Assembly: GCA_028280665.1 (NCBI GenBank)
Contig: JANQLJ010000001.1
Span: 1 to 36,712 of the forward strand
Direction: 5' to 3'
Source: Alphaproteobacteria bacterium
GTDB taxonomy: Bacteria; Pseudomonadota; Alphaproteobacteria; JAJFIK01
DNA length: 36,712 bases
Shown here in pieces: positions 22,749-36,712 of this stretch. The translations under genes and the position numbers were made by a program. Below the pieces are notes generated by a model that searched no databases, was not told where the DNA came from, and saw only the letters and a program-made list of their open reading frames with translations. Position 1 is the first letter of the stretch, and each line of letters begins with the position of its first letter.

Positions 22749-22907
22749 TCACATCGGCCGGTCAAGCACGCCCGGGCCCAGGCGCACAATGGTGATCACG
22801 AAAATCAAAACGACAAACGCCGCCAGCGAAAGCGCGATGGCAAGGTTGCGGGCCTTGCGGTTCTTTTCGAACTCGGGCGCCCGGGTCACGTTTTGGCTAT
22901 CGGTCAT
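22749..22907 (-). CDS. Small cytochrome c oxidase assembly-cluster protein (CoxF-like)
   Basis: This 52-residue protein starts [20 protein letters not shown] and has a single membrane helix ([20 protein letters not shown]) with an RLGPG ending. A small gene of this kind sits between ctaB and ctaG in many alphaproteobacteria and is often called CoxF. Its function is not established. Its ATG overlaps the ctaB stop (ATGA) and it ends 8 bases before the ctaG ATG, so it is translationally locked into the cluster. The longer open frame upstream lies within ctaB and is not real. Confidence 0.88.
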
Positions 22908-32224: not shown

Positions 32225-33166
32225 ATGGCAGCGCAATCGTCTCCCAAGTCGAAAATCATCAAGGACGCGAGACCCACCAATTGGGTTGACCGCTCGGCCC
32301 CCGCCTTCGCAAGACCGTACTTGAAGCTCATGCGAGCGGACCGGCCCATTGGCGTGTGGCTTTTGCTGTGGCCGTGCTGGTGGGCGCTGGCCATGGCCTC
32401 CCCCGCCTTCGAGGGGCCGCTTCTTTCTCTTCTCGGCATGTTCGCGCTCTTTGCCGTGGGCGCTTACGTCATGCGCGGGGCGGGCTGTACCTATAACGAC
32501 ATTGTGGACCGCGACTTCGATGCCAAGGTGGACCGCACCGCGCGGCGGCCGCTTCCTTCCGGGCAAGTGACACTGTGGCAAGCCATTGCGTTCCTGGCGC
32601 TGCAACTCCTCATCGGATTTTTGGTACTGGTGCAGTTCAATCTCTTCACCATCTGGCTGGGCGTGGCGTCGCTTGGCTTCATTGCGCTTTATCCCTTCAT
32701 GAAGCGGTGGGTGTGGTGGCCGCAAGCCTTTCTCGGTCTCACCTTTAACTGGGGCGCACTCATGGGCTGGACGGCAATTACGGGGGAACTCGCGCCCGCG
32801 CCGGTTCTTCTTTTTGTTGGCGCGTTCTTCTGGACCCTCGCCTACGACACCATCTACGCCCATCAAGACAAAGAAGACGACGCGCTGATCGGCGTTAAAT
32901 CCTCGGCAAGGGCGCTGGGCGAGAAGACCATGCCGTTTCTTGCCGTCGCCTACACGCAGGCGGTGGTGCTGTTCGGTTTGGCCGGGTACTTCGCGGAAAT
33001 GGACTGGATCTTCTACATCTTCCTGGCCTTCTTCGCCGCCCATCTCGCCTGGCAGGTGCGGCGGGTGAAGATCGACGATCCCGTGATATGCTTGTCCGTG
33101 TTCAAATCGAATCGGGACGCGGGCGCCATTTTGTTTATCGCATGGTTCCTCGGTGCCGTCCCTTAG
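32225..33166 (+). CDS. ubiA: 4-hydroxybenzoate polyprenyltransferase
   Basis: This 313-residue membrane prenyltransferase attaches the polyprenyl tail to 4-hydroxybenzoate in ubiquinone synthesis. The first Asp-rich motif is NDIVDRDFDAKVDRTARRPL (91-110) and the second is DTIYAHQDKEDDALIGVKSS, both standard. The opening KLMRADRPIGVWLLLWPCWW and about eight hydrophobic helices fit the family. ATG 32225 has AGGGATAGG upstream; a longer frame runs back across the divergent rsmE start without support. UbiD, which acts later in the pathway, is encoded 3 kb downstream. Confidence 0.97.
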   Translation: MAAQSSPKSKIIKDARPTNWVDRSAPAFARPYLKLMRADRPIGVWLLLWPCWWALAMASPAFEGPLLSLLGMFALFAVGAYVMRGAGCTYNDIVDRDFDAKVDRTARRPLPSGQVTLWQAIAFLALQLLIGFLVLVQFNLFTIWLGVASLGFIALYPFMKRWVWWPQAFLGLTFNWGALMGWTAITGELAPAPVLLFVGAFFWTLAYDTIYAHQDKEDDALIGVKSSARALGEKTMPFLAVAYTQAVVLFGLAGYFAEMDWIFYIFLAFFAAHLAWQVRRVKIDDPVICLSVFKSNRDAGAILFIAWFLGAVP

Positions 33167-34723: not shown

Positions 34724-35668
34724 ATGCTCAAGGAAGCTCAAGGCATATTGACCCCCGAGGAGCTGGCCGCCGTGCGCAAGCGGTCGGACCTTATGGGCCT
34801 GTGGGGCGCCCTATCCTGCTGGGGGATCATCTTCGGCGCCATGGCGCTTTTTGCCTATTGGCCGAATCCGCTCACGTTCCTCATCGGCGTCGTGGTGATC
34901 GGCGGGCGGCAGCTCGGCCTTGCGGTGCTGATGCATGACGCCGCCCACGGCATCATGTGCAAGACAAAGGGGCTTAATGACTTTCTGGGCAAGTGGCTGT
35001 GCGGCAATGCCATCGGCGTTTCCATCGACGGCTACCGCGACTATCACCTCAAGCACCATTTGCACACCCAGCAGCCCGAAGACCCCGACCTTGTGCTCTC
35101 GGTGCCCTTTCCCATCACCAAGGCCTCACTCCGGCGCAAGATCATCCGTGATCTGACGGGGCAGACGTTCTGGAAGCAGCGCAAGGCGCAATTCCTGGGC
35201 GGCATTGGCGAACACGGCATGCCCATCGCTCAGCGTGCGGACTATGCGCGCACGCGGCTTGGCTCATACATTCTGGTGAACGGCATTTTGTTCGTGAGCC
35301 TCGCGCTTGCCGGATACTGGTGGCTTTATCCGGTCATGTGGCTTCTGCCCATGGCCACCTTCAACATGCTGATCACGCGCATCCGCAACATCGCCGAGCA
35401 CGCCGTAGTGCCCGATAATGACGATGTGTTCCGCAACGCGCGCACCACGCTGACGGACCCACTGACCGCGCTCCTGATCGCGCCCTACGGCGTCAACTAC
35501 CACGTGGAGCATCACCTCTTCATGTGGGTGCCGTGGTACAATCTGGCGAAGCTGCACAAAATCCTGCTTAAGAAGGGCTATGGCGAACGTATGGAAATCC
35601 AGCCCAACTATCTCGAAGTGCTGAAGCTCGCCACCGCGAAGCCCGAAGCTGCCCCTACAGCAGCGTGA
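34724..35668 (+). CDS. Fatty acid desaturase family protein
   Basis: This 314-residue membrane protein has the three histidine boxes of di-iron desaturases: HDAAHG (71-76), HLKHHLHT (108-115) and HVEHH in YHVEHHLFMWVPWYN (260-264), plus the EH pair in RNIAEHAVVPDND. It has three to four hydrophobic helices before and between them. The desaturated substrate could be a fatty acid, carotenoid or sphingolipid precursor and cannot be set from sequence. The ATG gives the expected N-terminus; the longer frame upstream lies inside the amidohydrolase gene. The last 14 bases overlap the small antisense gene at 35655-35747. Confidence 0.93.
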   Translation: MLKEAQGILTPEELAAVRKRSDLMGLWGALSCWGIIFGAMALFAYWPNPLTFLIGVVVIGGRQLGLAVLMHDAAHGIMCKTKGLNDFLGKWLCGNAIGVSIDGYRDYHLKHHLHTQQPEDPDLVLSVPFPITKASLRRKIIRDLTGQTFWKQRKAQFLGGIGEHGMPIAQRADYARTRLGSYILVNGILFVSLALAGYWWLYPVMWLLPMATFNMLITRIRNIAEHAVVPDNDDVFRNARTTLTDPLTALLIAPYGVNYHVEHHLFMWVPWYNLAKLHKILLKKGYGERMEIQPNYLEVLKLATAKPEAAPTAA

Positions 35669-35747
35669 ATCCACCCCATAGCGCCGCCGCCAAGGCGGCG
35701 AACACCGCCGCATAGAGCAGCAGCAATAATCCGTTGCGCCGCATCAT
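35655..35747 (-). CDS. Candidate 30-residue single-pass membrane peptide
   Basis: On the minus strand an ATG at 35747 (or the next codon, 35744) starts a 30-codon frame, MMRRNGLLLLLYAAVFAALA followed by AALWGGFTLL, closed by TAG at 35655-35657. The peptide is one hydrophobic helix after a positively charged start. Its ribosome binding region, GAGGGACGGAAG just upstream of the ATG, is good. It overlaps the desaturase 3' end by 14 bases. The region also contains the perfect stem CGCCGCC-AA-GGCGGCG (35685-35700), which may simply reflect alanine codons. I do not recognise a family; it is not CydX-like in sequence. Confidence 0.5.
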   Translation of the reverse strand: MMRRNGLLLLLYAAVFAALAAALWGGFTLL

Positions 35748-35922
35748 CTTCCGTCCCTCGCCCGTCCCTTTTGCCCGCATCGCGGCGGACAAACTTCAAG
35801 TCTAGCCACGGCACCGGGCGGCGGGAGCACAAAACGGACGCGCCTTTTTGCTGGTGCTTGGGCGCAATGCAGAACCCCTGTGACGCATCGCGCCTTAAGG
35901 CTGTTCGGGCCAAAATCTCTGC

Positions 35923-35951: not shown

Positions 35952-36712
35952 ATGGCCTACAGGTCGTTACGGGAATTTATCGGCAAGCTGGAAGCGGCGG
36001 GGGAGCTTGTGCGCGCCGCCGAGCCCGTCTCCTCCGTGCTTGAGATGACCGAGATTCAGACCCGCCTTCTCGCCGAGGGCGGCCCCGCGGTTTTGTTCGA
36101 GAACGTGACCCGCGCGGACGGCGCACCCTCGCCCATGCCGGTGCTTGTGAACCTTTTCGGCACGGTCCGCCGCGTCGCCATGGGGGTGACCGCCGACGGC
36201 AAGGAACGCATCACCGCCCACGATTTGCGCGAGGTGGGCGAGGTGCTCGCCTTCCTGCGCCAGCCCGAACCGCCCAAGTCGCTGGGCCAGGCGAAAGACC
36301 TTCTGCCCCTTGCCAAAACCGTCATGGACATGCGCCCTTCGACACGCGGCAACGCCCCCTGCCAAGAGGTGGTGCTGACGGGCGGCGAAATCGACCTTGG
36401 TGAGTTACCAGTGCAGACCTGCTGGCCGGGGGAGCCCGCGCCGCTCATCACCTGGCCGCTGGTGGTGACCAAGGGCCCAGGCGAGAGCGCGCTCGATGAC
36501 TACAATCTCGGCATTTACCGCATGCAGGTGATTTCCAAGAACCAGACGCTTATGCGCTGGCTCAAACATCGCGGCGGCGCGCAACACCATCAGCGCTGGG
36601 CCAAGGAAAAGCCCGAGCCCCTGCCCGCCGCCGCCGTCATCGGCGCGGACCCGGGCACGATCCTCGCCGCCGTCACGCCGGTGCCCGATACCTTGAGCGA
36701 GTATCAGTTCGC
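35952..36712 (+). CDS. ubiD: UbiD family decarboxylase (partial, runs off the right edge)
   Basis: The first 253 codons are present and open to the window end. The start MAYRSLREFIGKLEAAGELV is the classic UbiD opening. The prenylated-FMN binding region is seen in DDYNLGIYRMQVISKNQTLM followed by RWLKHRGGAQHHQRW. UbiD removes the carboxyl group from polyprenyl-4-hydroxybenzoate in ubiquinone synthesis and needs the flavin prenyltransferase UbiX. With ubiA 3 kb upstream, a ubiquinone role is the best inference, though the wider family decarboxylates other aromatic acids. The catalytic Glu residues lie beyond the edge. Confidence 0.93.
   Translation, partial: MAYRSLREFIGKLEAAGELVRAAEPVSSVLEMTEIQTRLLAEGGPAVLFENVTRADGAPSPMPVLVNLFGTVRRVAMGVTADGKERITAHDLREVGEVLAFLRQPEPPKSLGQAKDLLPLAKTVMDMRPSTRGNAPCQEVVLTGGEIDLGELPVQTCWPGEPAPLITWPLVVTKGPGESALDDYNLGIYRMQVISKNQTLMRWLKHRGGAQHHQRWAKEKPEPLPAAAVIGADPGTILAAVTPVPDTLSEYQF

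Follow-up and report, generated by a model that had tools for sequence, protein, structure and literature searches.

Whether a 30-residue open reading frame lying between a desaturase gene and a ubiD gene encodes a protein, and what such a protein would act on, is the question raised by the locus described here. The window, i.e., the whole stretch of DNA analysed, comprises 36,712 nucleotides of an alphaproteobacterial genome (G000), and it was compared with two relatives of the same genus (G001 and G002). Our analysis argues that the frame is a genuine protein-coding gene, whose product would be a 29-30 residue single-pass inner-membrane protein restricted to the genus in the genomes searched, and we give this reading a probability of about 0.8.

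The reading frame and its setting

The features of the locus in the window are as follows.

35655-35747, minus strand: probable small membrane protein gene (translation; kept in G001 and G002; coding-type substitutions; AlphaFold helix)
35748-35759, minus strand: putative purine-rich ribosome binding region GAGGGACGGAAG, the 12 bases immediately 5' of the ATG (duplex energy -8.1)
34724-35668, plus strand: gene of the fatty acid desaturase superfamily (314 aa), convergent with the peptide gene (PF00487, E = 4.8e-44)
35952-36710, plus strand: UbiD-family decarboxylase gene, truncated at the end of the window and reading away from the peptide gene (PF01977, PF20695)

The frame translates as MMRRNGLLLLLYAAVFAALAAALWGGFTLL followed by a TAG stop, and the product would have 30 aa from the ATG at 35747 or 29 aa from a second ATG at 35744. 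The frame, its basic start and its hydrophobic helix are present as given in a preliminary description made from the letters alone, which had also called the frame antisense to the desaturase 3' end and said that it fills the gap between two plus-strand genes. The antisense claim was overstated: the desaturase stop codon occupies 35666-35668, the overlap with the peptide frame amounts to only 14 bases, and in the relatives there is none, the lowest base of the frame being the 4th (G001) or the 33rd (G002) past the desaturase stop. The frame does lie between the desaturase and ubiD genes, where it occupies 79 of the 283 bases that separate them. It is mainly intergenic and convergent with the desaturase gene, not antisense to it. 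The desaturase is 74% identical in each of the two relatives, and UbiD is 85% (G001) and 79% (G002) identical. A guanitoxin enzyme label for the desaturase was not adopted (score 112.8 against a cut-off of 380), and no solved structure was found near it by sequence (best E = 0.69).

The plausible ribosome binding region noted earlier was also recovered. Duplex energies to the 16S tail, computed with what we take to be its sequence, were -8.1 and -8.2 for the two G000 ATGs, -8.3 for G001 and -6.0 for G002; of the ATGs in the window, 1212 in all, 7% have an energy at least as favourable as -8.1, and the ribosome-site energy is supportive and not decisive. In G000 the frame is open in the 5' direction as far as the in-frame ATG 35780 and TTG 35792. 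Because G001 has a stop codon four codons ahead of the peptide ATG, and in G002 the stretch from the upstream stop to the peptide ATG lacks ATG, GTG and TTG, the conserved protein start would be 35747 or 35744. The second Met (35744) is the alignment partner of the G002 ATG, and GGAAG stands 3 bases upstream of both; from this alignment and shared spacing, the 29-residue product appears at least as likely as the 30-residue one. No promoter was recognised for the peptide gene by a sigma-70 scan, and a terminator scan at the peptide locus gave no terminator-like site. Since both flanking genes are on the other strand, the gene presumably has its own promoter in G000.

A mean hydropathy of at least 2.2 over 19 residues was reached by 2 of the 144 window frames of 25-60 aa taken from the first ATG, namely the peptide frame (there read from ATG 35780) and a frame beside ctaG. 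What raises the predicted gene above chance is its conservation. Directly before ctaG/cox11 and near COX3 lies a second short single-helix frame (22749-22907, minus strand; 52 aa, hydropathy 3.03, no Pfam match), and the gene position suggests a small product that helps to assemble cytochrome c oxidase or is accessory to it.

Conservation within the genus

The relatives searched comprised 59 genomes, among which G001 and G002 are the only others of the genus; the three genus genomes are also the sole members of their order among the genomes searched (G001 is listed as 8% contaminated and G000 as 91% complete). In both relatives a peptide frame is present in the position and orientation seen in the window, encoding MDIKNAMLLVCYMAVFVALGAALWSGFTII in G001 and MFKTVYLVLCYVTVFAGVGAAFYVGATAV in G002. 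Each product is a Lys-containing, single-helix peptide of 29-30 aa with an ATG start, a purine-rich site and a stop, and the identity to the window peptide is 57% (G001) and 38% (G002), with 9 columns invariant across the three. A Lys or Arg near the N terminus, the hydrophobic span, the frame with its start and stop, and the locus beside the desaturase gene are kept in all three genomes. A check of synteny between the desaturase and ubiD had been proposed in the preliminary description, and it came out in favour of the gene: two of two relatives keep both neighbours together with the frame, start, stop and hydrophobic helix, and a loss of conservation beside these neighbours was seen in neither.

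The whole G001 genome, when searched with the G000 peptide, gave two matches, and the sole one with E < 1 (2.5e-6) starts 16 positions beyond the end of the desaturase match; against the G001 syntenic stretch alone, the match showed 59% identity over 27 residues (E = 7e-8). The G002 copy was missed by the G000 peptide alone in a whole-genome search. A profile built from the G000 and G001 peptides placed the syntenic spot of G002 first of the 3 matches listed (26 candidates scored), with E = 0.039 as against 0.56 for the next, and this match is weak unless its position is counted in. The much stronger values of the three-peptide profile in G000, G001 and G002 are circular, as their own peptides built the profile. 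There is one significant peptide copy in each of the three genomes, at a fixed place.

The substitutions that separate the three predicted peptides are coding-like, being mostly synonymous or conservative. The comparison of synonymous with nonsynonymous change that had been asked for earlier gave pS of 0.73, 0.70 and 0.82 and pN of 0.35, 0.44 and 0.38 for G000/G001, G000/G002 and G001/G002, respectively, i.e., 0.70-0.82 against 0.35-0.44. Differences at codon positions 1/2/3 numbered 11/9/19, 10/13/20 and 13/9/19 in the three pairs, and the residues shared by a pair, the initiator Met excluded, carried synonymous changes in 11 of 16 (G000/G001), 6 of 10 (G000/G002) and 8 of 11 (G001/G002) cases. 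The observed similarity was reached by none of 20000 column shuffles (codons 3-30) and by none of 1702 stop-free shuffles. The reading-frame score was 206 for the peptide frame, which is the only one open in all three genomes, and -7 to 87 for the other five frames, each of which has stops in at least one genome. Nucleotide identity was 0.505-0.605 in the frame and 0.41-0.45 in the stretch upstream of it (134 positions compared). The pN of the desaturase was 0.18-0.21 and that of a MAPEG-like neighbour 0.23-0.31; the peptide value is about twice the former and above the latter, so the constraint on the peptide is looser than that on the neighbouring genes. No single face of the helix gathers the invariant residues to a significant degree (as much clustering occurred in 4397 of 20000 random sets), and the sequence therefore gives no sign of a specific binding face.

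By translated comparison, the gene order common to the three genomes is an RsmE-like gene, ubiA, a MAPEG-like gene, one or more variable genes, the desaturase gene, the peptide gene on the opposite strand and ubiD, where the RsmE-like and MAPEG-like names are those that we presume. A 95-aa gene between the RsmE-like gene and ubiA is found only in G001. An amidohydrolase gene precedes the desaturase gene in G000 and G001 (66%) and is absent from that place in G002, and extra genes of 240 aa in G001 and 136 aa in G002 were each matched in neither of the other two stretches. Between the peptide gene and ubiD, both relatives carry a PGPGW-type membrane protein gene (PF09656; 39% identical, the G002 copy scoring below the curated PF09656 cut-off) and a phosphotransferase gene (PF04655 in G001; the G002 copy is 45% identical), located as follows.

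Relative locus L076, 12438-12719, minus strand: PGPGW-type membrane protein gene
Relative locus L076, 12838-13668, plus strand: phosphotransferase gene
Relative locus L077, 11620-11922, minus strand: PGPGW-type membrane protein gene
Relative locus L077, 12023-12877, plus strand: phosphotransferase gene

Neither of these two genes was matched in the window, and the G002 PGPGW-type protein was not found in the whole G000 genome, which is 91% complete (best E = 0.78). The genes on both sides thus change while the desaturase and peptide genes stay neighbours, and the desaturase gene is the sole neighbour directly adjacent to the peptide gene in three of three genomes. An operon with the PGPGW-type gene was considered and not adopted: in the relatives it precedes the peptide gene on one strand with it, at distances of 175 (G001) and 260 (G002) bases, and it was not found in G000. 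A leader peptide was rejected because what follows downstream of the frame is desaturase antisense sequence. In all three genomes the desaturase-superfamily gene stands between ubiA (about 32228-33166 in the window) and ubiD, and it is possible that this desaturase is tied to quinone or prenyl lipids rather than to fatty acids.

Searches outside the genus

A comparable peptide frame was found beside none of the 21 more distant desaturases examined. Thirteen of these loci (L043-L055, from Reyranella and others; desaturases 53-56% identical) were scanned up to 700 bases downstream, or 527 for L053, for frames with an 18-residue hydropathy above 1.6; the other eight (L005-L012; desaturases 35-55% identical) were scanned up to 600 bases downstream at the same hydropathy for frames of less than 80 aa from the first start. 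The desaturase loci L013-L031 and L056 were left out of this count. At L012 an unrelated 68-aa frame lies beside the desaturase gene.

The profile searches took in 385 genomes of the class and 398 of the phylum, genus included, both samples being drawn from larger groups; in neither did the matches outside the genus exceed the number that chance would give. In the class sample, 18 of 382 genomes outside the genus gave a match at E <= 0.05, where about 19 are expected by chance, and the best of these matches is interrupted by a stop codon (E = 2.8e-4, for which about 0.1 would be expected across the 382). The phylum sample gave a match at E <= 0.005 in 1 of 397 other genomes, where about 2 are expected, and it lies inside a 194-aa frame. 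None of the three peptides matched Pfam, NCBIfam, PADLOC or PHROGs at E up to 10, a range in which the HMMER filters remove most matches above about 0.1. The profile matches among solved structures were three ZnuA-like zinc-binding proteins (best E = 0.0027), aligned over 13 residues near their N termini, and these are taken as a probable reflection of signal-peptide-like composition. As far as the genomes searched show, the peptide appears restricted to one alphaproteobacterial genus, and the predicted small membrane protein has no detected relatives outside that genus in these genomes.

Predicted structure, candidate partners and competing readings

The 18-residue hydropathy maximum is 2.47 in G000, 2.46 in G001 and 2.11 in G002. 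AlphaFold predicted one helix over residues 2-29 with a mean pLDDT of 86.2 (76.9-86.2 over five models); such a single-helix model is to be expected for a hydrophobic 30-mer and is silent on any partner. By its length and its one hydrophobic span, the peptide belongs with the bacterial small single-pass membrane proteins (at most about 50 aa), which are a class of size and topology and not a homologous family. In the mechanism that we propose, the basic N terminus would be kept in the cytoplasm by its Lys/Arg, a helix of about residues 6-30 would span the membrane with no outer domain, and the peptide would serve as a small accessory subunit or regulator by packing against some larger protein of the membrane. 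CydX and KdpF, small accessory subunits of membrane enzymes, are likewise about 30 aa with a single helix, and genes of this type usually lie within the operon of their enzyme; the window gene differs in standing on the strand opposite the desaturase gene, and no Pfam or NCBIfam model matched any of the predicted products. Among the small membrane proteins of Escherichia coli are YohP (27 aa) and YkgR (33 aa), and YohP is reported to be inserted by SRP together with SecYEG or YidC (PMC7549839). Both resemble the window peptide in size class and in having essentially one transmembrane helix, and the route of YohP offers a plausible model for its insertion; they belong to another organism, and no sequence relation is claimed.

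A partner encoded elsewhere is more likely than the desaturase. We consider it somewhat better than an even chance that the frame encodes a real small membrane protein acting with another membrane complex (a transporter, an oxidase or a protease) or on the lipid bilayer itself, which is a form of our main explanation, so that its probability is not to be added to the value of about 0.8. Among the bacterial small membrane proteins characterised so far, many have a partner whose gene lies at another locus, the convergent orientation means that no transcript is shared with the desaturase gene, and a comparable neighbour is absent beside all 21 more distant desaturases examined. What speaks against a distant partner is that the desaturase gene alone stays directly adjacent in all three genomes, and the desaturase is the first candidate partner, at odds well short of even. 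This partnership is held so low because the peptide is encoded on the opposite strand and related desaturases have no comparable gene. Similar odds are given to the full proposal of a microprotein peculiar to the genus, encoded convergently with a bacterial membrane desaturase and dedicated to it as a subunit or regulator. We know of no bacterial accessory microprotein of a membrane desaturase, and a narrow literature search found none by title among the matches listed.

A type I toxin, i.e., a membrane-damaging hydrophobic peptide silenced by an antisense RNA, is improbable here. The size, the basic start and the single hydrophobic helix would fit such a toxin, and the convergent arrangement has room for an antisense RNA. 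Type I toxins are often multicopy and patchy, and the peptide gene, in contrast, occurs as a single significant copy in each genome, always at the same spot; it also has no Rfam match, no match to a protein family (Pfam, NCBIfam, PADLOC, PHROGs) and no clear conserved RNA structure in a consensus fold of the three sequences. In that fold the summed covariation term was unfavourable (+1.22), and in 35 of the 78 predicted pairs at least one sequence had both bases changed with the pairing retained, three sequences being too few to judge. DinQ (PMC3567139) and TimP (PMC7667032) are described as toxic membrane peptides opposed by small RNAs. They are short membrane-acting peptides, and DinQ has one helix, as the window peptide is predicted to have; the opposing small RNAs are a feature of theirs, and the window gene is single-copy at a fixed place.

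Less probable again is a chance open frame in GC-rich intergenic DNA, in which Ala and Leu codons mimic a helix, a possibility raised in the preliminary description. The frame is indeed short and strongly Ala/Leu, no promoter-like site was found, its ribosome energy is reached by 7% of the window ATGs, and the sequence match in G002 is weak. Against this stand the syntenic frames in both relatives, the coding-type substitutions, the 20000 shuffles that never reached the observed similarity, the whole-genome match at the syntenic spot of G001 (E = 2.5e-6) and the higher conservation of the peptide frame than of the adjoining upstream DNA. The chance reading is disfavoured. Least probable of all is that the conserved thing is an RNA, for instance a terminator working in both directions or an antisense RNA that regulates the desaturase from its 3' end, with the frame incidental: the position where two transcripts converge, an inverted repeat (GCCGCC...GGCGGC) seen by eye inside the G000 frame and the 35 of 78 pairs kept in the consensus fold would favour it, but the repeat was not seen by eye in G001 or G002, no terminator-like site or Rfam match was found, third codon positions hold the largest share of the differences, and the covariation term is unfavourable.

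As a probable protein-coding gene, the frame is a further conserved, lineage-specific gene so short that annotation cut-offs would be expected to drop it, and it shows that a gene of 30 residues can be supported from as few as three draft genomes. Taken as a bare conserved small membrane protein, its product would be one of many. Binding to the desaturase, should it occur, would suggest that in bacteria a microprotein can control a membrane lipid enzyme post-translationally.
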